The notes under the pieces are model-generated. The model saw nothing but the letters and a program-made list of their open reading frames with translations. It had not been told where the DNA came from and searched no databases. DNA of 64,000 bases, from positions 1-64,000 of the forward strand of contig CAKZQG010000028.1 of the NCBI GenBank assembly GCA_937139605.1, read 5' to 3'. The position numbers and the translations under genes were made by a program. The stretch comes from an uncultured bacterium. Lineage in GTDB: Bacteria > DRYD01. Shown here one piece after another: positions 36,889 to 58,037 of the stretch; the stretch's first letter is position 1, and each line of letters starts with the position of its first letter.

Positions 36889-38409
36889 CTATTTTATTTT
36901 TTCATACTCAAAATTAATAACATTCTTTTTTACTTTATCAAACTCTATCCCTATTATGTATATTTTTTCATAATTTAAATATTTCTTATGATACTCTTTT
37001 TCTTTAATTTGTTTTAATGCTTTCCCTTTTTCTTTTTGATTCTCTACTACCTTAAACTCCATTATATACACTACTTTTTTATCTACTACTACTGTTAAAT
37101 CTATCCTCCCTTTTGATGTATTATCCTCTATTATTACATTATATCCTGTAGAATATATCAATCCATATATTGCTGCAGAATATACATACTCATTTTTTAA
37201 TACTTCATAACTTATTGTATTTATAAACACTTCTACTTGCTTTCTTATTTCCTCTAAATTCTCTTTTATTAATGCTAATTCTAATGGTTTTGTTATATAT
37301 TGCTTATAATCTCTTGTTATATAAAACAATAACTCATTGTTAAATGCTTCTCTTACTTCTCTATTTGGATAATCTAATGTATATACTTCCCTTGCACCTA
37401 TTTTTTCTATCTCTTTTATTGTTAAGTACCCTGTTTGAAACATTAATGCTTCTATACTTATATATTCTATGTCAAACTTCTCTAATATCTCTTCTGTATA
37501 ATATCTCTTATACAAATAAGGTAAATCAAAGTTCTTTTGTTTTATTATTTTAAATAAAAACTCGGTCCTTCCTGTTTCATACCAATAATTCCTTATCTCC
37601 TTTTTATCTAAATATAACAACACATCAAATGGATTATACACTTTACTACCTAAAAAGTTATATCCGTTATACCACTCTTTTACCTCTTCTAAATTTACAT
37701 CTTTTAAATACTCTTTAAAATAATATTCTAATTCGTCTTGGGTATATCCACATATATTTCCATACTTTTTATCTAATGATATATCCTTTAACTGATTTAA
37801 CCCACTAAAAAGTGATACTTTTGCAAATTTTGAAACCCCTGTTACTAATACAAATCTTATATATCTGTCTAATGCTTTCAATACTGAATAAAATGCTTTT
37901 AACATCTCTCTTATCTCATATACTTCTTCCTTATCTATTAAATCTAATATCGGTTTATCATATTCATCTACTAATATCACTACCTGCTTTTTAGTTTTTT
38001 CACTTATATGCTCTATTAATAATTTCCAATTTATATATACACTTAAATTCTCTTTTATTTCATAATCATATTTCTCTGAATACCTTAATATTACTGAATA
38101 TATCTGTTCTTCTAATAAGTGTTTATTTAACGTCTGGATTTCCCCGAAATCTACCCTAATTACCGGATATTTTTCATTCCAATCCCATTTATCTTCTATA
38201 TACAGTCCTTTAAATAATTCTCTTTGACCTTCATATAGATACTCAATAGTAGATAAAAGTAGTGATTTTCCAAAGCGTCTTGGCCTACTTAAAAACACAT
38301 ACTTTGAATTACTTAACAACTCATATATGTACTTTGTTTTATCAACATATACATAATTTCCCGTTATTATATTCTTAAAATCACTTATCCCTATTGGTAA
38401 TTTTTTCAT
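36889..38409 (-). CDS. AAA-ATPase-like / PD-(D/E)XK nuclease family protein, full length
   Basis: An intact 506-aa member of the family cut off at 1-1038. Residues ~1-60 contain LPIGISDFKNIITGNYVYVD and the Walker A-like SRPRRFGKSLLLSTI; DEYDKPI is the Walker B/acidic site. The middle third differs from the other copy, and the C-terminus has the nuclease-like GRIDLTVVVDKKVVYIMEFK with D and ExK. I start at the ATG at 38409, eight bases after an AAGGGG Shine-Dalgarno; an in-frame GTG at 38418 overlaps that site. The role is unproven; members often occur in many copies per genome. It lies between two lipoprotein genes. Confidence 0.87.
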   Translation of the reverse strand: MKKLPIGISDFKNIITGNYVYVDKTKYIYELLSNSKYVFLSRPRRFGKSLLLSTIEYLYEGQRELFKGLYIEDKWDWNEKYPVIRVDFGEIQTLNKHLLEEQIYSVILRYSEKYDYEIKENLSVYINWKLLIEHISEKTKKQVVILVDEYDKPILDLIDKEEVYEIREMLKAFYSVLKALDRYIRFVLVTGVSKFAKVSLFSGLNQLKDISLDKKYGNICGYTQDELEYYFKEYLKDVNLEEVKEWYNGYNFLGSKVYNPFDVLLYLDKKEIRNYWYETGRTEFLFKIIKQKNFDLPYLYKRYYTEEILEKFDIEYISIEALMFQTGYLTIKEIEKIGAREVYTLDYPNREVREAFNNELLFYITRDYKQYITKPLELALIKENLEEIRKQVEVFINTISYEVLKNEYVYSAAIYGLIYSTGYNVIIEDNTSKGRIDLTVVVDKKVVYIMEFKVVENQKEKGKALKQIKEKEYHKKYLNYEKIYIIGIEFDKVKKNVINFEYEKIK

Positions 38410-38612
38410 AAAAAGCACCCCTTTTTAAATAAACATTGTCTAATTAATATTTAAATTAATTTTAAATATAATCCTGTTATTTTTTAAGAATTTATTCAAT
38501 ATGAAAATCTAATTCTAAAAAAATTCATTCAAAATAAAAAATTAATCTTAAACAAAGAAAGAAATTCTAAATAAAAAAATAACTCTAAAAATTTTTAGTT
38601 TAAATGGATAAA

Positions 38613-48927: not shown

Positions 48928-49429
48928 TTAAAATTTCCATTTTTCTCTTTGAAATAATTCTTTCAAGTTAATACAATCAAGATTATATTGTTTAGAAACA
49001 TAAGGTATTCTTTGTTGCTTAGTTTTTGATTCTTCCGTAAGAATTGTATATAGGTATTTTTTTGATGAAAATAACGATGGAGATAACCTACTCTTTTTAG
49101 TTTGTTCATGTCTTTTAGTTAATGCAAGTGCTATAATCCAATTTATTGGATGTTTTTCCTTCCTTAGCTAAGAATGGAAATTTTTCTATAATTTCTTTTT
49201 GTTTTTCAGTTTGATCTTTATCAGCTTTTATAAACATTTCTTTTTTGTTTTCTATCCATTTTTTTAGTTCTTTATCCATTAATTCATATTTTACTTCTTC
49301 AGGAGCTATTAATCTTTCTTGTTCAAAAAGCTCTTCCATTTTCTTCCAAATACTTGGAAAAATAATTTCAGGATATTTATCTTTCATTTCTATTAAAGAG
49401 CTTGTATCTATTATGTATATATATTTCAT
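48928..49429 (-). pseudogene. DUF4411 PIN-like toxin-type protein, frameshifted
   Basis: The first frame begins YIYIIDTSSLIEMKDKYP (the PIN-like Asp) and runs to EKFPFLAKEGKTSNK. It then leaves the family. Starting at 49140 another frame gives WIIALALTKRHEQ, ... RIPYVSKQYNLDCINLKELF and ends QREKWKF at 48928, exactly the DUF4411 C-terminus. The shift is one extra base or two missing bases near 49140, the opposite sign from the other frameshifts here. Its ATG overlaps the stop of the ImmA gene (ATGA). DUF4411 is commonly paired with XRE-ImmA proteins as a toxin-antitoxin-like unit. Confidence 0.8.
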
Positions 49430-50577
49430 CTTTTAGATAATAATTTTTCTAATTTATCCAGATTTTGATAATTAATAGATAAAAATTCAAGTAAATCTTG
49501 GGTAGTAATAAGGCCTTTTTCTTTACTTTCTAAAACAGTTAAGATAAATTTTTCTCCTTTTTCTTGAACACATTTTTTTGCTGGAGTTATAATAGATTTC
49601 CCTTGATTTTTTTTAGATTCAATTTTAGATTCAATTTTTGCTTTTTGTTCTTCATAATCTTCATAGCTTAGGACATTTAATAGCATTAATTTTGTAAGGA
49701 TAGCTTTTTTGCTTACTTTAAATTCTCGTGATAAATTTTCTATTATTTTTGGCATTACTTTTTCTGTTTTAACTAATAATTCAAAGAGCTCATTTTTTTC
49801 AAGTTCTTTTGTAGGGATTAGGAATTCAGATGCGAAAGTATCACACCATTTTTCTATTTCTTTAGAAGTATCTGAATCTTGAATATATATTTCAGGGATC
49901 CCTAAAATTAGATGAGCATATTCATGGAATAAGGTAAATATTCTGGCAAGGATATTATCTTGCGAGTTTATTACTATCACATAGAGTAAGGTATCCATTA
50001 ATGAAAAGCATCTTGCATCTTCTAATGGAAATTTGAATTGAAATACTAAAATATTTTTTTATTCAATAAATTTTCTCCAAGTATTAAAAGCTTCATAAGC
50101 ATCTTTAAATTTATATTGTTTTTCGATAGGAATTCTTGATTCATTACGTTCTTTGATAGCAACTTCTATTGGATTATCTTCAAGTTTAGTTTTTTCTATT
50201 TTAGGAGTAAAGCTAATATTTAAGTCTAAAATTATCTCATTTACAATAGATTGGTAATATTGTGCTTTTCTTATTGCAAGTAGTAGCTCTTTAGAGATTC
50301 GTTTTTCAGTTTTAGGTAATACTCTAAACGCAGAAGAAATTGGGAGTTCTTTTGGGGCTTGTGGAAGGAAAAAAGCCGATGTTGGTCGTTGAAATAGTTT
50401 AGAAAGTTGTTTAATTTGTTGGAAAGTTAGGAATTCTCTACCAGCTTCTATTTCTTTATAATTTTCTATTGAGATTTTAAGTTTTTTAGCTATTTCTTCA
50501 ATACTCCATCCTGAAGTTTCTCTTAAATACTTTATAACCTCAGGATTTATCTCAACTTTAAATGACTTTTTAGGCAT
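49426..50577 (-). pseudogene. XRE-ImmA regulator (HTH + HExxH metallopeptidase), interrupted by an in-frame stop
   Basis: The 5' part has an XRE helix-turn-helix (GWSIEEIAKKLKISIENYKE) and the family linker FQRPTSAFFLPQAPKELP. It ends at TAA (50059-50061) after YEAFNTWRKFIE. The same frame continues with NILVFQFKFPLEDARCFSLM and the metallopeptidase ARIFTLFHEYAHLILG (HEYAH) with EKWCDTFASEFL. So one ~383-aa gene carries a single nonsense codon. An internal ATG at 49998 could restart the second half. In intact modules this protein represses the operon and restrains the neighbouring DUF4411 protein. Confidence 0.82.
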
Positions 50578-50704: not shown

Positions 50705-53700
50705 TTAGTTATAATTTTTTTCAATTATTTGAATTTCTTCGGTTGTTAGGTTATATAGTTTATAAACGAGTGCGTTTATTTCATTTTCAAGGGTTTTAAC
50801 CTCAGATTGCTTATTTAAATCACTCTCATAATCTTTACAACTAGTTATATCAATAATCTTATTAACTAATATCTCTATTCTTTTAGCTATCTCCTCGTTT
50901 TCTAGTGTGATAATAGGAATCGGAATTCTCTCTACATATTGATTAGATAAAAGAAAACCAGTATCGGAAAGTTGATGAACATAAGTTTTTACATAAAAAT
51001 CAATAACTTTTGAATTTAAAATCCCTAATATAAACCTTAAATTTTCTCCTGTCATAAAAGCTATACTATCAAGAGTATATAATCCTTTTGGAACAAAGCA
51101 AAAAGAAAAATTTTTTGTAACTCTCTGCCAAACTATCTTCTCTTTTTCAAATTCAGAGTAATAATCACAATGTCGAAGTTCCCACCAATAATCGCCTTGA
51201 TCATCCCTATTAAGTAATCCTTTGCCTTTACCTTTATAATCTTTGAATTGCAAAAAGTAATTATATAACGAAGAAAAAATATTTTTAAAAAATTCTTCTG
51301 GATTTTCTTTTTTACAATGCTTATTCGTCCAACCTGCTTCAATTTTTATAATCCAAAATCCTTCCCATTTATATCTCCATTTGTGAATATCTCTTCCCCT
51401 TAAAACTGGCTTTATTATCTCTTCTGTTCTTTTTCTTTCATCCTCTGTTCTACAGTTTGCTAAAATTCTGTTTCTTGTTTGTGTATCTATTATAAAAGCT
51501 TCATTAAAACCCGTTAAAACCCCACGATAAATTTTTACATCCCACTCTTTTAAAGGTTTCCCTACCCTTTCTATCTTTTCTTTTAAAACCAATTCCTTAT
51601 CATCAGCAAGTGTCCAAGCATCATCAGAAAGCTTATTCTGCTCCATAAACCTATAATTAGATCTTATATACTCTATAATTTCACTACAATCAGAAGGAAC
51701 TATACAATAACTGAATTTCCAACCTTCTAACAATTCCTGACTTTTCAATTTTTTAAATAATACTATACAAGTATCTACAGTTTGCTCAAAAACCCTATAC
51801 CCCCCAAAATCTACTAAAGTTATTAAAAAAGTATTTTTCTTTAAAAAACTTCTTAAATTTTTCCCATACTTAGCTCTCATCCATTTATTACTTGAAATAT
51901 AACAAAGAACACCTTCCTCCTTTAAAAGCTTATAACCCCTTTCATAAAAATAAACATAAATATCAGCAGTTGAATCAAAAACTTTATAGCCTTGATCCTT
52001 TAATATAGGTTTAAATTCTTTAATTTTCTCTTGCCTTATATACGGAGGATTCCCGATAACTATATCAAAACCATCATCCACTCCAAACATCCATTCACTA
52101 TCAAAAAAATCATTCCCCTTTAATTGTGAAAAAATATCAAAATCCACTATCTTTTGTATTGTTATATCAGGGAAACTATTTTTCTTTAATTCTTCTTTTA
52201 TTTCATTTTTTATGTTTTGAGTTTTCTCTTTTAATCTTAATTTCTCTTTACGAGTCTTTATCCTAAAAAACTTTTTATAAATATTTTTTAATTCTTTTTT
52301 AAGATTCTTAAGTTTTTCAGTTGATAAAAGTAATTGCGGTTTTTCTAAAGCTACTAAGCTATTAGCTGTAATAAATTTTGTTTCTAAATGAGGAAGAGCT
52401 TTTATCCCAAAATTCTCTTTACTCCTATCTACTTTTTGGTCTATTATAAGACTTAAAAAGAAACGCAATTTAGCTATCTGAATAGCTATATTCTGAATAT
52501 CAACCCCATAAATAGAATTCTCTATTATATACAACTTCCTAGAATAATCCGGATAATTAAAAGAATCATCAAAATTTTCATTTAATTCTCTTAATAAGCT
52601 TATCTTTTCTTCTTGATCTGATATTTTTAATACCTGTTCCAGTTCATTTATAGCTTTATTATATTGTAATTCATACCAATATTTATTTTCTGGATCTATT
52701 TTATTAAGGATATAAACTAATTTTTGAAGGATCCCCATAGGAAATGCCCCAGAACCCACCGCTAAATCAATCACTTTTAAGCTATCTATAGCTCTTATTA
52801 AATCCTGACGCTCATTCTCATTAAGCTTAAGATCTAATTCATTCTCCTGATAACTAATAATATTTCTAAGTTTCTTATCATCAATAGAAGTCTTAGTTTT
52901 AAAATATTGAAATAATGATTCTTCTACCATAAAATCTACGATCTCTTTAGGGGTATAATAAGAGCCTGTAGCTTTCCTAGCAGTTGTTCGAGTTTCAGGG
53001 TTATAAGAAGCCAAAAGGTTTTCAAAAATATGACCTAATAACTCTGGATCAAGCGAAACCTCTATATCAATAGGAGATGACTCATCCGCTGTAAAATTAT
53101 AATCCTTTAATATATTAATAATCCCCCTAACATTAACCTCTTTTTTTTCTCCATAAAAAAAACTAAGATCTTCTTTTTTTTCATTTGAAAAAAATAAGAA
53201 ATCAGGTAGTTTAGCTCTTTTATTTTCATTTCTACTAAAACCATCTATATAATAGGAATCATCATCTAAGCATTCAAAAAGACCACCATTAACAAAAGGG
53301 ACCTCATCAAAAATCTTAATAAAATCTTCTTCAGTAATTAAAATCTTATCTTTATACCTAAAAAGTGTTTTAACCCCAAAATCAGTTCTTTGATAAATAA
53401 AATCTCCGTCTTTAGCGAACCCCCTATCCTTAGCATAAGTATTTAAAGTAGCAAAAAATAAATTTTGTAAAATAACATTATAATAAGAATCCCCAGTTTT
53501 AAAATTTTTAACTATATTAAATAACTCATTTTCATCAAAAATTTTTTCAGGGATAAGTCCTTTTTGTTTTAAAAACCAAACAAAAATAAGCCTTGTTATT
53601 AATCTTATCAAGTTCTCTTCAATATTACCCCCCGGGAAATAAACTTCTCCAGTATGAGATAACTTTAAAGCCCAAGCATACCAATTTTGGATTTCAATAA

Positions 53701-54268
53701 AGAATTCTTTAGTAAGTGGGATAACAGAGAAGGAATTAATTATAGAAGGAAGCGTAGAAAAATCTCCTTCAGATATAGATTTTAAAAAAGTTCTGTAAGG
53801 TTTTTTGTTTTCTACAAAATAAGTATATCTTTTAAAATGACTAAAATTAGTTTTACTAGGTAGATAAACTTTATAAACTAAAGAGAGCCTAAAATTTTTA
53901 TTATCATCATAAAATACAAATATCCCAGCATCTAAACCTATATCGTTCCTTAAAATTTTTTTAGCTAATTCAAATTGATTCTTTTTACTTGATCTATCAG
54001 ATAATACATCATTAACCCTTACAGCATAACACTTTAAAACATTATCATCTATAAGGTTAACTTTTAAAAACTCCTTAATTTCAACAAATCTATCATTTTC
54101 AAAACTAAATAATCTATTATCTAAAATATCATGATTTAAATTTTTGAACTTAAAATCAGAAAAAATACTTTGTAAAGTTTCTAAAGAAAAATCATTAATA
54201 AGCTCCTCTAAATATTTATAAATTCTTTCATTAATTATTTTAGGTTTATATACTTCATATCCATACAT
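50705..54268 (-). CDS. Eco57I-type adenine-N6 DNA methyltransferase / restriction-modification protein
   Basis: A 1187-aa protein. The methyltransferase domain starts with GSYYTPKEIVDFMVEESLF, has motif I D501-L-A-V-G-S-G-A-F and motif IV N740-P-P-Y743. The C-terminal ~350 residues contain VLRGRDIHKWRYKWEGFWI, a TaqI/Eco57I-like target-recognition region. The N-terminal ~430 residues are conserved in this subgroup but I see no clear PD-(D/E)XK or other nuclease motif. The gene follows the helicase gene by 46 bases, so the two form an operon. It probably marks self DNA, with the helicase/PLD protein as effector. It resembles DISARM DrmMI or PglX in type, without their usual partners. Confidence 0.85.
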   Translation of the reverse strand: MYGYEVYKPKIINERIYKYLEELINDFSLETLQSIFSDFKFKNLNHDILDNRLFSFENDRFVEIKEFLKVNLIDDNVLKCYAVRVNDVLSDRSSKKNQFELAKKILRNDIGLDAGIFVFYDDNKNFRLSLVYKVYLPSKTNFSHFKRYTYFVENKKPYRTFLKSISEGDFSTLPSIINSFSVIPLTKEFFIEIQNWYAWALKLSHTGEVYFPGGNIEENLIRLITRLIFVWFLKQKGLIPEKIFDENELFNIVKNFKTGDSYYNVILQNLFFATLNTYAKDRGFAKDGDFIYQRTDFGVKTLFRYKDKILITEEDFIKIFDEVPFVNGGLFECLDDDSYYIDGFSRNENKRAKLPDFLFFSNEKKEDLSFFYGEKKEVNVRGIINILKDYNFTADESSPIDIEVSLDPELLGHIFENLLASYNPETRTTARKATGSYYTPKEIVDFMVEESLFQYFKTKTSIDDKKLRNIISYQENELDLKLNENERQDLIRAIDSLKVIDLAVGSGAFPMGILQKLVYILNKIDPENKYWYELQYNKAINELEQVLKISDQEEKISLLRELNENFDDSFNYPDYSRKLYIIENSIYGVDIQNIAIQIAKLRFFLSLIIDQKVDRSKENFGIKALPHLETKFITANSLVALEKPQLLLSTEKLKNLKKELKNIYKKFFRIKTRKEKLRLKEKTQNIKNEIKEELKKNSFPDITIQKIVDFDIFSQLKGNDFFDSEWMFGVDDGFDIVIGNPPYIRQEKIKEFKPILKDQGYKVFDSTADIYVYFYERGYKLLKEEGVLCYISSNKWMRAKYGKNLRSFLKKNTFLITLVDFGGYRVFEQTVDTCIVLFKKLKSQELLEGWKFSYCIVPSDCSEIIEYIRSNYRFMEQNKLSDDAWTLADDKELVLKEKIERVGKPLKEWDVKIYRGVLTGFNEAFIIDTQTRNRILANCRTEDERKRTEEIIKPVLRGRDIHKWRYKWEGFWIIKIEAGWTNKHCKKENPEEFFKNIFSSLYNYFLQFKDYKGKGKGLLNRDDQGDYWWELRHCDYYSEFEKEKIVWQRVTKNFSFCFVPKGLYTLDSIAFMTGENLRFILGILNSKVIDFYVKTYVHQLSDTGFLLSNQYVERIPIPIITLENEEIAKRIEILVNKIIDITSCKDYESDLNKQSEVKTLENEINALVYKLYNLTTEEIQIIEKNYN

Positions 54269-54314
54269 AATAACTTACCCCCATTATCGATTATATAATT
54301 AATTAGTTATATCA

Positions 54315-57300
54315 TTATATTTTTAAGTTTTCTATAGCGATAATAATTTCTTCATGATGTTCTTTAAGATATCTTTGGATTTTTAAGATAAAATCTTCTC
54401 CTATTTCATTTTTTATAGCTTCAAGCTTTTCTATAATTTTTAATAACATTTTATCAAAATTATTATCTTTTAAATTATTGATTTTATTAATTATTTCTTC
54501 AAGTTGAGCAATTTCTTCTAAAAGGTACTCGGAAACTGTGTGATATTCTCTTATATCTTCCATTAAATTAGAAATAAAAGGATAATAAGGTTTTAATTTT
54601 TGATGTTGTAATTGAATAATCCCCTTTAAAGTTCTATAACTAATTTCATATAAAGTATTAGATGCTCTGATAGTTTGATATTGTTCAAAAAAAGTTCCTT
54701 CTAATATTTGATGATAATTCTTCCAGAAAAGATTACTCAAAGGTAAATTAATATCTGTAATGTCTGCTTTGATTTTTTCAAAAACTTGTTGAAAATTTAA
54801 ATTCTCAGGATATTTGTTATTATAATTTTGATAACCAATAAATAGATCTTTATTCTTTTTTATAAAAACCATAAGCTCATTATCATTACCTTTCTTAGAG
54901 ATTTTAATTCTAACAGGAAGGTTTTTAAGATTTTCTAATACTTTGGGGTTTTTAGAGATAATAGAATCGAATTCTTTTTTAACTTTAGTATAGAAGCTTT
55001 CTTCTTCTTCTTCTTGGGGGATAGTTATAAGTCTTTTATATAGTTCAGATGGTTGAGGTTCTTCATCTGGGCTAAAAATTTTAGAATCTTCTCCTAATAC
55101 GTTATGAATCATAAACATTTTAGATTCTGCGATTTCTCGAGATCTTACATGATCTGCACCTTTCTCAGTTGGAAAGAAATTTATAATATAAATTTCATCA
55201 TAAACTTTCTTAGCGATCCTATTAATCCTTCCAACTCTTTGAATAACTCTAACAGGATTCCAAGGGATATCGTAATTAATAACAACACCTGCTCTATTTA
55301 AATTAAACCCTTCTGAAAGCTTATCAGTTGTAAGAAGAATATCATAATTATCTTCTTGTTCAGAATATTGAGCATCAAAATTAGTATAAATTTCTCTAAT
55401 AGTTTTATTAGATAAATTTTCAACGGCAACAAGCACCCTATTACTAAAATGCTTTTGAAGAAATCTCTTTAAATGAAAAACCGTATCCCTATACTCAGTA
55501 AATATTACTACCTTCCGCTTATCTTTTAAAAAATTTTTAACAACTTCAATAAGTTTATTAGCTTTAGAATCATTTTCTAATAAAGAAAGAGAGTCCATCT
55601 TTGACATTAAATCCTCAAATAAAGCAATATCTGATTCTATATCATTAAAAAACTCTTCCTTTAATTTAAATTTATTAATTTCATAAATTTTATAGAACTG
55701 GGAATTAATTTTTTCTTCTTGTAAAGTTTTTTTATAATTTAGTAATTCTTCTAAGATTGAATCTTCATCTTTATTATAGATATCTTCCATAAGTTTTTTA
55801 TCGAGAATAAATTTTTGAGTTTTTTTAGCAAAATCGAGAGATAATTTATAGAATTCTATAAAATTTTTTAGGCTTTGATAAAAAGCGCCAAAACTACTCT
55901 CAAATCGCTTAACAAGCAACCTTCTCATTAAATCATAAAGGTTCCTCTGATATAAAAAAATAAAAGAATCCTTATTAAGAGATTCTTCTTGTTCTTGAGA
56001 ATTAAAATAATCAAAATTAATACCCTTTTCATATAAAATAGGTAAATAAACAGCACCTTTAAATTTTCCACCTTCTTGAACAAGATAAAAAGATTTAATG
56101 ACTTCATCATAAAACTCCAATTGCTCTTTAGTTAATTCAAAAAAAACCTCAATAGGATCTTTGATTTCAGAAAACTCTATATTTTCATAATCTTTAAAAT
56201 ATTTTAGATCTAAGCGGTTTCGTCTTATAACAATCACTTCAAGAATCCCCTTAATTTTTAAAGCTAATTTCTTTGCTCTATCATTTACTTTAGCTAAATC
56301 ATTAAATGAAATATGAGAGATTTTTTCAGAAAAAATACTGTTATAATAGCTAACTGCTCTCCTCCTTTTAGTAGAATCTTGACTATTCCAATGCTTTTTT
56401 ATATAAGCTAACTTTTGGAACTCAGATTCATAAGCTCTAAACCTATCTTCAAGATTTTGATCATAAACTATAGTAGATCTTTTAGGAATAGTAAATAGCT
56501 TTAAAAGAGCAAAGATATCAGAAGGACGATTATTAAAAGGAGTAGCTGAAAGAAGTAAAACAGTTTTACCCCTACATATTTCCCTAAGATAATGATAACT
56601 CTCAGTTCTCTGATTTCTGAATCTATGAGCTTCATCTACTATAATAATCTCTATTTCCGGATGATTCTTAACAAAATTCAAAGCTTCCTTAAGTTTCCCT
56701 AAGGACCATACCTCCCAATCCCATAGTTTAAAATCTTCTAAATATTTTTTCCATCCAGAGGTTTTATCCTGATTCCCAATAAGATGCGGAGGACATATAA
56801 CTATCCCCCTCTTTCCAAGTGCTTTGGCAGTTAAACACGCAATAATACTTTTACCCAACCCAACTACATCAGCTAAAATACAACCTCCATGTACCTCGCA
56901 ATTGGCTAACGCTTGGGAAACTGCTGTTAATTGATAATCAAACGCCTTATATCCCCTTTCTTTTAAAATTAGTTTTAAATCTTCTATTTGATAACTCCCT
57001 TGATGTAATTCTAAATAAGTTTTAAGTAAATAAACATAAGCTTCAAAAGGAGTAATCTTTCTAAAAAAAGTTTCTTTATCAAAAATCTGAATAACTTTTT
57101 GGATATCATCTTCATTTAATTCTATAGCTTTTTGCCAAAGATTATCAAAATATTCTTCTGCTTCTTTAAAACCATAATCTTTAATTTCTACATTAAACTC
57201 ATCTTGCTCTCTAATTCCCGCTTTAGTTAAATTACTACTACCGGTAATAATTAATCCTGGCAAAATAACCCTTGAATTCTCATCCATTTTAAAAAGATAT

Positions 57301-57716
57301 AATTTAGCATGATTAGGTTCCTTAGTTTTCCTAATAACAATGATTTTTTTCAAAAGAAGTTCCTTAAAGAAATCTATTTGCTCATAAATTAGTTGGTTAT
57401 CAAGTTCAGTTGAAGTAAAAGCTTTCTTAATAGAATTAAAGAAATCCTGCTTTAAATTATTGATATTAAAATTTTTTAGTTTTTTAGCGTTTTCATATAT
57501 TCCATATATTCCAACATCTACATTTAAGCCAACTAAAATTTTGAGGAATTCTTGTGAAAGCTTTCCATTTTGATAAAATTCTTTAAGAGTTTCATAAAAT
57601 ATATTTAATCCTGAAAAATAAAAGAACCCTACTAAAAATTTTAATTGAGAGCTTTTAGCTATGAGTTCTTTGATACGTTTTTCAAGATTCTTTTCTGGGG
57701 TATTCGTTATAAACAT
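54315..57716 (-). CDS. Phospholipase-D-like nuclease fused to SNF2-type helicase
   Basis: A 1133-aa protein. Residues ~1-215 form a PLD-like nuclease domain with one HKD motif: H136-x-K138 (NHAKLYLF), then GSSNLTKAGI. From ~255 an SF2/SNF2 helicase follows: Walker A D-V-V-G-L-G-K289-S, D361-E-A-H, SATPFNN (from 390) and motif VI VIRVIQRVGRINRIAK-like near 845. The C-terminal ~250 residues are helical. Such proteins translocate on DNA in defence systems such as DISARM (DrmD) and others. Here PLD and helicase are in one chain. The gene lies about 75 bases downstream of tRNA-Ser. Confidence 0.87.
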   Translation of the reverse strand: MFITNTPEKNLEKRIKELIAKSSQLKFLVGFFYFSGLNIFYETLKEFYQNGKLSQEFLKILVGLNVDVGIYGIYENAKKLKNFNINNLKQDFFNSIKKAFTSTELDNQLIYEQIDFFKELLLKKIIVIRKTKEPNHAKLYLFKMDENSRVILPGLIITGSSNLTKAGIREQDEFNVEIKDYGFKEAEEYFDNLWQKAIELNEDDIQKVIQIFDKETFFRKITPFEAYVYLLKTYLELHQGSYQIEDLKLILKERGYKAFDYQLTAVSQALANCEVHGGCILADVVGLGKSIIACLTAKALGKRGIVICPPHLIGNQDKTSGWKKYLEDFKLWDWEVWSLGKLKEALNFVKNHPEIEIIIVDEAHRFRNQRTESYHYLREICRGKTVLLLSATPFNNRPSDIFALLKLFTIPKRSTIVYDQNLEDRFRAYESEFQKLAYIKKHWNSQDSTKRRRAVSYYNSIFSEKISHISFNDLAKVNDRAKKLALKIKGILEVIVIRRNRLDLKYFKDYENIEFSEIKDPIEVFFELTKEQLEFYDEVIKSFYLVQEGGKFKGAVYLPILYEKGINFDYFNSQEQEESLNKDSFIFLYQRNLYDLMRRLLVKRFESSFGAFYQSLKNFIEFYKLSLDFAKKTQKFILDKKLMEDIYNKDEDSILEELLNYKKTLQEEKINSQFYKIYEINKFKLKEEFFNDIESDIALFEDLMSKMDSLSLLENDSKANKLIEVVKNFLKDKRKVVIFTEYRDTVFHLKRFLQKHFSNRVLVAVENLSNKTIREIYTNFDAQYSEQEDNYDILLTTDKLSEGFNLNRAGVVINYDIPWNPVRVIQRVGRINRIAKKVYDEIYIINFFPTEKGADHVRSREIAESKMFMIHNVLGEDSKIFSPDEEPQPSELYKRLITIPQEEEEESFYTKVKKEFDSIISKNPKVLENLKNLPVRIKISKKGNDNELMVFIKKNKDLFIGYQNYNNKYPENLNFQQVFEKIKADITDINLPLSNLFWKNYHQILEGTFFEQYQTIRASNTLYEISYRTLKGIIQLQHQKLKPYYPFISNLMEDIREYHTVSEYLLEEIAQLEEIINKINNLKDNNFDKMLLKIIEKLEAIKNEIGEDFILKIQRYLKEHHEEIIIAIENLKI

Positions 57717-57735
57717 AATTTAATAAGAAATTGAA

Positions 57736-57747
57736 TAGCAATTGCTA
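57736..57747. promoter_or_regulatory. 12-bp palindrome upstream of the helicase/methyltransferase operon
   Basis: TAGCAATTGCTA is a perfect palindrome 20 bases before the helicase ATG and just after a minus-strand TATAAT, where a repressor would sit. A 12-bp palindrome is not rare by chance in AT-rich DNA, so this is tentative. Confidence 0.35.
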
Positions 57748-57789
57748 AATTATAATGAATTATAAGATTAAGAATTTACAGAGGGAATA

Positions 57790-57879
57790 CGGAGGAGGCG
57801 GGATTCGAACCCGCGGTATCCCTTTTGGGGATACACTCGATTTCCAGTCGAGCGCCTTCGACCGCTCGGCCACCCCTCC
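57790..57879 (-). tRNA. tRNA-Ser (anticodon GGA)
   Basis: On the minus strand the gene starts GGAGGGGTGGCCGAGC. The anticodon stem is CTCGA/TCGAG with loop CTGGAAA (anticodon GGA, 57843-57845). A long variable arm TATCCC-CAAAA-GGGATA and the T arm GCGGGTTCGAATCCCGC follow; the acceptor stem closes with one G-U. CCA is not encoded. Reads UCC/UCU codons. Its 3' end faces the defence operon. Confidence 0.97.
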
Positions 57880-58037
57880 AATACTATATTATAAATTTAT
57901 TCAAAATAACTTAAACTCCTCTTTAATACCTATAAAAAATAATATAAAACTAATTAAAGAAAACTAATTAAAGAAAATTAATTTAAAGAAAATTAATGAA
58001 CAAATAAATTTAATGATAAAATTAACATAGATAATAA

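Follow-up and report, generated by a model that had tools for sequence, protein, structure and literature searches.

A PLD-SNF2 helicase and an Eco57I-type methyltransferase form a widespread gene pair, probably an ATP-dependent restriction-modification system with exchangeable specificity parts

The stretch analyzed here, 64,000 nt of contig CAKZQG010000028.1 from an uncultured bacterium of the GTDB lineage DRYD01 (hereafter the window), carries on its minus strand a gene for a helicase that joins a phospholipase D (PLD) domain to an SNF2 motor and, 46 nt further on, a gene for an Eco57I-type adenine methyltransferase (Table 1). An earlier sequence-only reading had suggested that these two genes might be a minimal, little-described DNA-modification defence system. 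Both open reading frames (ORFs) are indeed intact, with the positions, lengths and spacing that it gave, and the residues on which it relied, H136 and K138 in the helicase and D501 and NPPY (740–743) in the methyltransferase, lie where it placed them and are invariant in the 41 helicases and 36 methyltransferases that were compared.

Table 1. Features of the window at and around the helicase-methyltransferase pair
Feature	Positions	Strand	Remarks
DUF4411 PIN-type toxin gene	49115..49429	(-)	truncated, 104 aa vs 173 aa in G001
XRE/ImmA (spr1629-like) antitoxin gene	49426..50577	(-)	interrupted by in-frame stop; accessory cargo, with longer relatives in G001 and G004
Eco57I-type adenine methyltransferase gene	50705..54268	(-)	1187 aa, intact ORF; proposed modification and specificity subunit
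Target-recognition domain (TRD), TaqI_C, residues 945–1165	50774..51436	(-)	exchanged relative to G004 copy
HsdM/BrxX-like helical part and catalytic core, residues 183–840	51749..53722	(-)	D501 motif I, NPPY 740–743
Methyltransferase N-domain, residues 1–180	53729..54268	(-)	co-diverges with helicase; proposed docking module; without conserved (D/E)XK
PLD-SNF2 helicase-nuclease gene	54315..57716	(-)	1133 aa, intact ORF; proposed restriction/motor subunit
SNF2/SF2 (superfamily 2) motor, helicase residues 240–900	55017..56999	(-)	Walker A GLGKS 286–290, DEAH 361–364
PLD nuclease domain, helicase residues 1–200	57117..57716	(-)	invariant H136, K138, GSSN (N162), E173
tRNA-Ser(GGA)	57789..57880	(-)	upstream neighbour; attachment-site role not supported

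The helicase matches the Pfam domains PLDc_2, SNF2-rel_dom and Helicase_C, and its AlphaFold2 model is good (mean predicted local distance difference test score, pLDDT, 80.5), with a core fold that resembles Swi2/Snf2 translocases and RapA in structure searches. Besides H136 and K138, the residues N162 and E173, the Walker A motif and the DEAH box are invariant among the 41 helicases, except that A363 is replaced by V in four. The sequence-only reading had described the PLD site as a single HKD motif; its histidine and lysine stand, but K143 is the residue five past K138, which departs from strict HKD. Judged by its residues, the H-x-K...N...E set is similar in kind to the HxK site of PLD restriction nucleases such as SauUSI, whose motif is H(X)K(X)4E (PMC7913695), and closer to it than to strict HKD.

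The methyltransferase contains the Pfam domains Eco57I, N6_Mtase and TaqI_C, and its model is likewise good (mean pLDDT 84.8). Structure searches matched CamA across the core and the TRD and, from residue ~150–184 on, BrxX, MmeI, Type ISP enzymes and HsdM, the similarity to BrxX and HsdM beginning at residues 182–184. The first 180 residues form an extra domain, in the model of alpha-beta-beta-beta-alpha-beta order, which the searches with the methyltransferase left unmatched (the matches mostly cover 182–1179). By sequence, no conserved (D/E)XK pair is present in this N-domain across the 36 proteins, its fold not having been searched on its own; position 84 is K, E, Q or S and position 86 is K, N, T or D over these proteins, and the window has R84 and N86. 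The topology and the position of the N-domain suggest that it may derive from a degenerate nuclease.

The two genes belong together well beyond this locus. Scanning a single genome for each species, we obtained at least 478 related stretches, of which the 80 best are spread over many bacterial phyla. Culturable carriers include Sulfurihydrogenibium yellowstonense, Thermodesulfobacterium thermophilum and Anaerolinea thermolimosa. Where the helicase was well flanked, i.e., with 5 kb or more upstream and 3 kb or more downstream, a methyltransferase lay beside it at 32 of 33 loci, which bears out the neighbourhood conservation expected from the sequence-only reading. All 63 pairs have both genes on the same strand; the methyltransferase follows the helicase within 250 nt in 37 pairs, and the genes overlap by 4 nt in 21. 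No constant third gene was found beside the pair among 97 neighbouring proteins, and no curated NCBIfam family names either protein. The two genes constitute a separate system, conserved as a pair in many phyla and, as had been proposed, little described. Within the small phylum of the source organism, the helicase is present in five of the seven genomes examined. The source genome itself (1.88 Mb, 88.5% complete) has two further helicase-methyltransferase pairs, which belong to a second subfamily and both contain broken frames (L006:3291-10640 on C44, methyltransferase broken; L007:3974-10904 on C11, helicase broken).

Comparing the identity matrices of the helicases with those of individual methyltransferase segments over paired loci (Spearman rho, Mantel permutations), we determined that the N-domain co-diverges with the helicase (rho 0.79–0.84 over 36–47 pairs). 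For 36 pairs, rho was 0.81 for the N-domain (0 of 2000 Mantel permutations), 0.07 for the core and -0.07 for the TRD; for 47 pairs, it was 0.835 for the N-domain and no more than 0.24 for every other methyltransferase region. In a sliding window, rho is 0.72 at residues 151–190 and 0.32 at residues 181–220, then about 0.1–0.3, and about 0 beyond residue 720. This step at residue ~180–190 coincides with the start of the BrxX/HsdM-like fold. A weak residual link to the helicase (connector 0.23, core 0.16 over 47 pairs) is still significant by permutation, and exchange is therefore frequent rather than total. Adjacency is unlikely to be the sole cause of the co-divergence, because the effect persists at loci with about 1 kb of cargo between the two genes (N-domain rho 0.89) and when reversed-order loci are compared with the rest (N-domain 0.65, other regions about 0).

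Furthermore, the N-domain is nearly confined to the neighbourhood of the helicase. In 40 genomes, which had been selected for carrying the helicase, an N-domain profile gave 50 matches, 48 of them, by our reading of the matches, beside a PLD-SNF2 helicase; the weaker matches adjoin second-subfamily helicases. The two matches without a helicase alongside are the methyltransferase G004:C12 and a copy in G011 that is disrupted. A total of 97 Eco57I domains occur in these 40 genomes, so that the core, unlike the N-domain, is often found in other settings.

Consistent with these statistics, individual copies are mosaics. Between the window and G004:C22, identity is 52% in the methyltransferase N-domain, 97–99% in the core and 37% in the TRD, and 55% between the helicases; at the DNA level, the two are about 98% identical on either side of a low-identity TRD block (window 51370-50780). 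The methyltransferases of G004:C22 and G004:C12 share 82% of their residues in the N-domain, 47% in the core and 15% in the TRD, and the latter gene (L030:5283-10404) has no helicase alongside and is followed by an OLD-like ATPase gene. On two Thermaceae plasmids, of Allomeiothermus and Thermus, the TRD has its own gene, located between those of the methyltransferase and the helicase, and the core and TRD genes have overlapping ends (L113:4831-8161 and L114:5578-8995), resembling HsdM/HsdS. The methyltransferase N-domain thus evolves with the helicase while the core and the TRD are swapped. An apparent helicase-methyltransferase fusion in G004, a frame of 2210 aa, was rejected, as the frame crosses a 100-N scaffold gap.

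We infer that the pair is probably an ATP-dependent restriction-modification system of Type I-like logic built from different parts, and the minimal defence role suggested by the sequence-only reading would be better described in these terms. The methyltransferase would recognize its site via the C-terminal TRD and methylate adenine at N6, and its N-domain would dock the PLD-SNF2 protein. At an unmethylated site, the SNF2 motor would hydrolyze ATP and translocate DNA, and the PLD domains of two protomers, forming one active site, would cut it; methylated host DNA would be spared, and invading phage DNA may be the target. Since specificity and methylation are combined in a single chain that follows a conserved docking domain, core and TRD could be replaced, or a further methyltransferase acquired at another genomic site, with the restriction subunit unchanged. 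A more far-reaching proposal, on which we consider the chances evenly balanced, is that one PLD-SNF2 subunit serves interchangeable methyltransferase-specificity modules, orphans included, via an N-terminal docking domain that descends from a degenerate nuclease, and that the pair represents a widespread, unnamed type of restriction-modification.

Some observations weigh against these interpretations. G004:C12, the orphan, is situated close to the end of its contig, in a genome that is 90% complete. The mosaic between the window and G004 (G000/G004) was observed in draft assemblies, one of which has a 100-N gap close to where the methyltransferase starts, and a chimeric assembly could have produced it. 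One well-flanked helicase (L061:8992-12312 of locus L061) lacks an adjacent methyltransferase, and its genome gave no match to the N-domain. Finally, among the nine reversed-order loci themselves, all regions of the methyltransferase correlate with the helicase, and these loci are uninformative on docking versus shared history for that reason.

The restriction-modification reading has to be weighed against others. The best PADLOC matches of the methyltransferase are Type IIG models (413.6 bits), and the protein might be a self-contained Type IIG enzyme that cuts by its own N-terminal nuclease, with the helicase as an accessory or a separate Type IV-like factor. The N-domain occupies the Type IIG nuclease position and has the alpha-beta-beta-beta-alpha-beta order noted above, and the fold of the protein can be aligned with those of MmeI, DrdV and BpuSI from residue ~150–180 on. 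However, with no conserved (D/E)XK, near confinement to the helicase neighbourhood, co-divergence with the helicase and an invariant PLD site in the latter, such an enzyme is unlikely. Slightly less probable still is an abortive or signalling system in which the complex detects infection or invader DNA and methylation serves as a self-mark or regulator. Variable toxin-like genes near the pair (XRE/ImmA-PIN, DUF1016, AbiEii, OLD-like and Schlafen-like) would fit this explanation, but they are inconstant, Type I loci likewise carry cargo genes, and a nuclease, a motor, a methyltransferase and a TRD are just the set required for restriction.

We regard it as very improbable that the pair is a reduced DISARM or BREX-like system with its missing parts elsewhere or lost. 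The sequence-only reading had compared the pair with DISARM, which likewise combines an SNF2 helicase, a large adenine methyltransferase and a PLD protein. Among the differences it named, two are borne out: PLD and helicase are fused here, and DrmB (MZB/DUF1998 domain) was not found in the source genome at its 88.5% completeness, although eight control genomes gave matches. The SNF2 core does resemble DrmD, the Eco57I domain resembles DrmMI and PglX, and BrxX is among the closest folds, but the profile scores fall far short of the equivalog cut-offs (DrmD 150.7 bits vs 610; PglX 96 bits vs 500), so kinship with DISARM beyond the shared SNF2 core is not supported by these scores. Neither PglZ nor DUF499 gave a match in the same, equally incomplete genome, and the pair lacks a constant third gene. 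As for DUF3780, the neighbouring ORFs that were scanned bear other Pfam domains, no dedicated search having been made. Membership in DISARM (DrmD score, DrmB), BREX (PglZ, PglX score) and BREX-related Type-2 systems (DUF499) was rejected on these grounds.

The next genes downstream on the methyltransferase strand encode the XRE/ImmA and DUF4411 PIN proteins. Longer, apparently intact XRE/ImmA-PIN genes occur in the relative G001:C16, in the order methyltransferase, XRE/ImmA, PIN, helicase; the G004:C22 restriction cassette includes an XRE/ImmA gene, and on a Balneolaceae contig (L095) XRE/PIN relatives adjoin a helicase. Other loci carry DUF1016 nucleases or AbiEii-like, OLD-like, AAA or Schlafen-like genes. 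Since it is present with the system in relatives and is replaced by other cargo at other loci, this toxin-antitoxin pair is a recurrent yet optional cargo, decayed in the window. In G001:C17 (L019:300-1685), a 461-aa gene without a Pfam match lies between a methyltransferase 3' end and the helicase in place of the XRE/ImmA-PIN genes of the sister cassette.

AAA-ATPase_like/PDDEXK_9 genes recur in these genomes (window 36889-38418, L019:5460-6986, L031:5361-6956 and L147:2-1383); one adjoins the restriction cassette in G001, and one, which is broken, adjoins pilB in G004. They are possibly a multicopy mobile or defence family.

The tRNA-Ser(GGA) next to the operon start, whose 3' end lies 72 nt upstream of the helicase start, had been taken for a classical island site. 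The neighbouring position is correct, but its proposed role as an attachment site or island border was rejected: with up to three mismatches allowed, the only match to the tRNA 3' end in the window is the tRNA itself, and the orthologous pilB loci of four related genomes have no adjacent tRNA.

Because the profile libraries searched here match the methyltransferase to Type IIG and public records label the helicase merely a 'helicase-related protein', counts of the system are probably wrong in many phyla, candidate phyla and thermophiles included. If the N-domain does dock the helicase, this would explain how a two-gene restriction system can retain its nuclease while its target changes, orphan methyltransferases that bear the N-domain would be predicted to be functional specificity variants, and the specificity of modular enzymes from thermophiles might be re-targeted by domain exchange. 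If the modules are interchangeable, a change of specificity would amount to a one-domain transplant.

Among known systems, Type I restriction-modification (HsdR/HsdM/HsdS) is similar in having a separate nuclease-motor subunit with an SF2 ATPase, a methylating and recognizing unit, an operon and an exchangeable target-recognition part; furthermore, the methyltransferase resembles HsdM in its helical part. It differs in that the HsdR nuclease is PD-(D/E)XK rather than PLD, and in that recognition lies in a separate HsdS, whereas methyltransferase and TRD are one chain here (split in Thermaceae) and a dedicated N-domain tracks the motor. Type IIG enzymes and BREX PglX share the Eco57I-like core, the helical connector and the C-terminal TRD, with core and TRD in one chain. 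Unlike in Type IIG enzymes, the N-domain here is specific to the helicase partner and has no conserved nuclease motif, and, unlike in BREX, PglZ gave no match in this genome.

The fused nuclease and motor also have counterparts. In BREX-related Type-2 systems, which are defined by a DUF499 ATPase and DUF3780, a Swi2/Snf2 helicase with a fused N-terminal HKD nuclease works with an N6-methyltransferase (PMC12839542); the helicase is of the same type, but the DUF499 component was not found in this genome. PADLOC C3a139 (HKD+Snf2) and NCBIfam NF042964 have the same order of PLD then Snf2, and their scores (120 and 108.5 bits, the latter against a cut-off of 1100) indicate distant relatives of a different family. 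SauUSI, a Type IV enzyme, is likewise a single-chain fusion of PLD nuclease and SF2 motor, with an HxK active site shared between two protomers; its specificity, in contrast, comes from its own C-terminal domain, which reads modified cytosine, and it cleaves modified DNA (PMC7913695). CglI and NgoAVII combine a PLD nuclease, an SF2 ATPase and a methyltransferase in ATP-dependent cleavage. There, PLD and ATPase are separate proteins, although fused homologues are mentioned, a B3 domain on the nuclease recognizes DNA, and the methyltransferase is a stand-alone 5-methylcytosine enzyme (PMC4267653, PMC5737866); the Pfam scan of the pair described here revealed neither a B3 domain nor such a methyltransferase.

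In the open literature, to which our search extended (many subscription papers and REBASE lie outside it), we found no named system of a PLD-SNF2 and an Eco57I protein. As far as this literature shows, the arrangement of the pair and the modular docking proposed for it are undescribed, while the kind of system is already known, the restriction systems SauUSI and CglI/NgoAVII providing the precedent for a PLD nuclease working with an SF2 motor (PMC7913695, PMC4267653).

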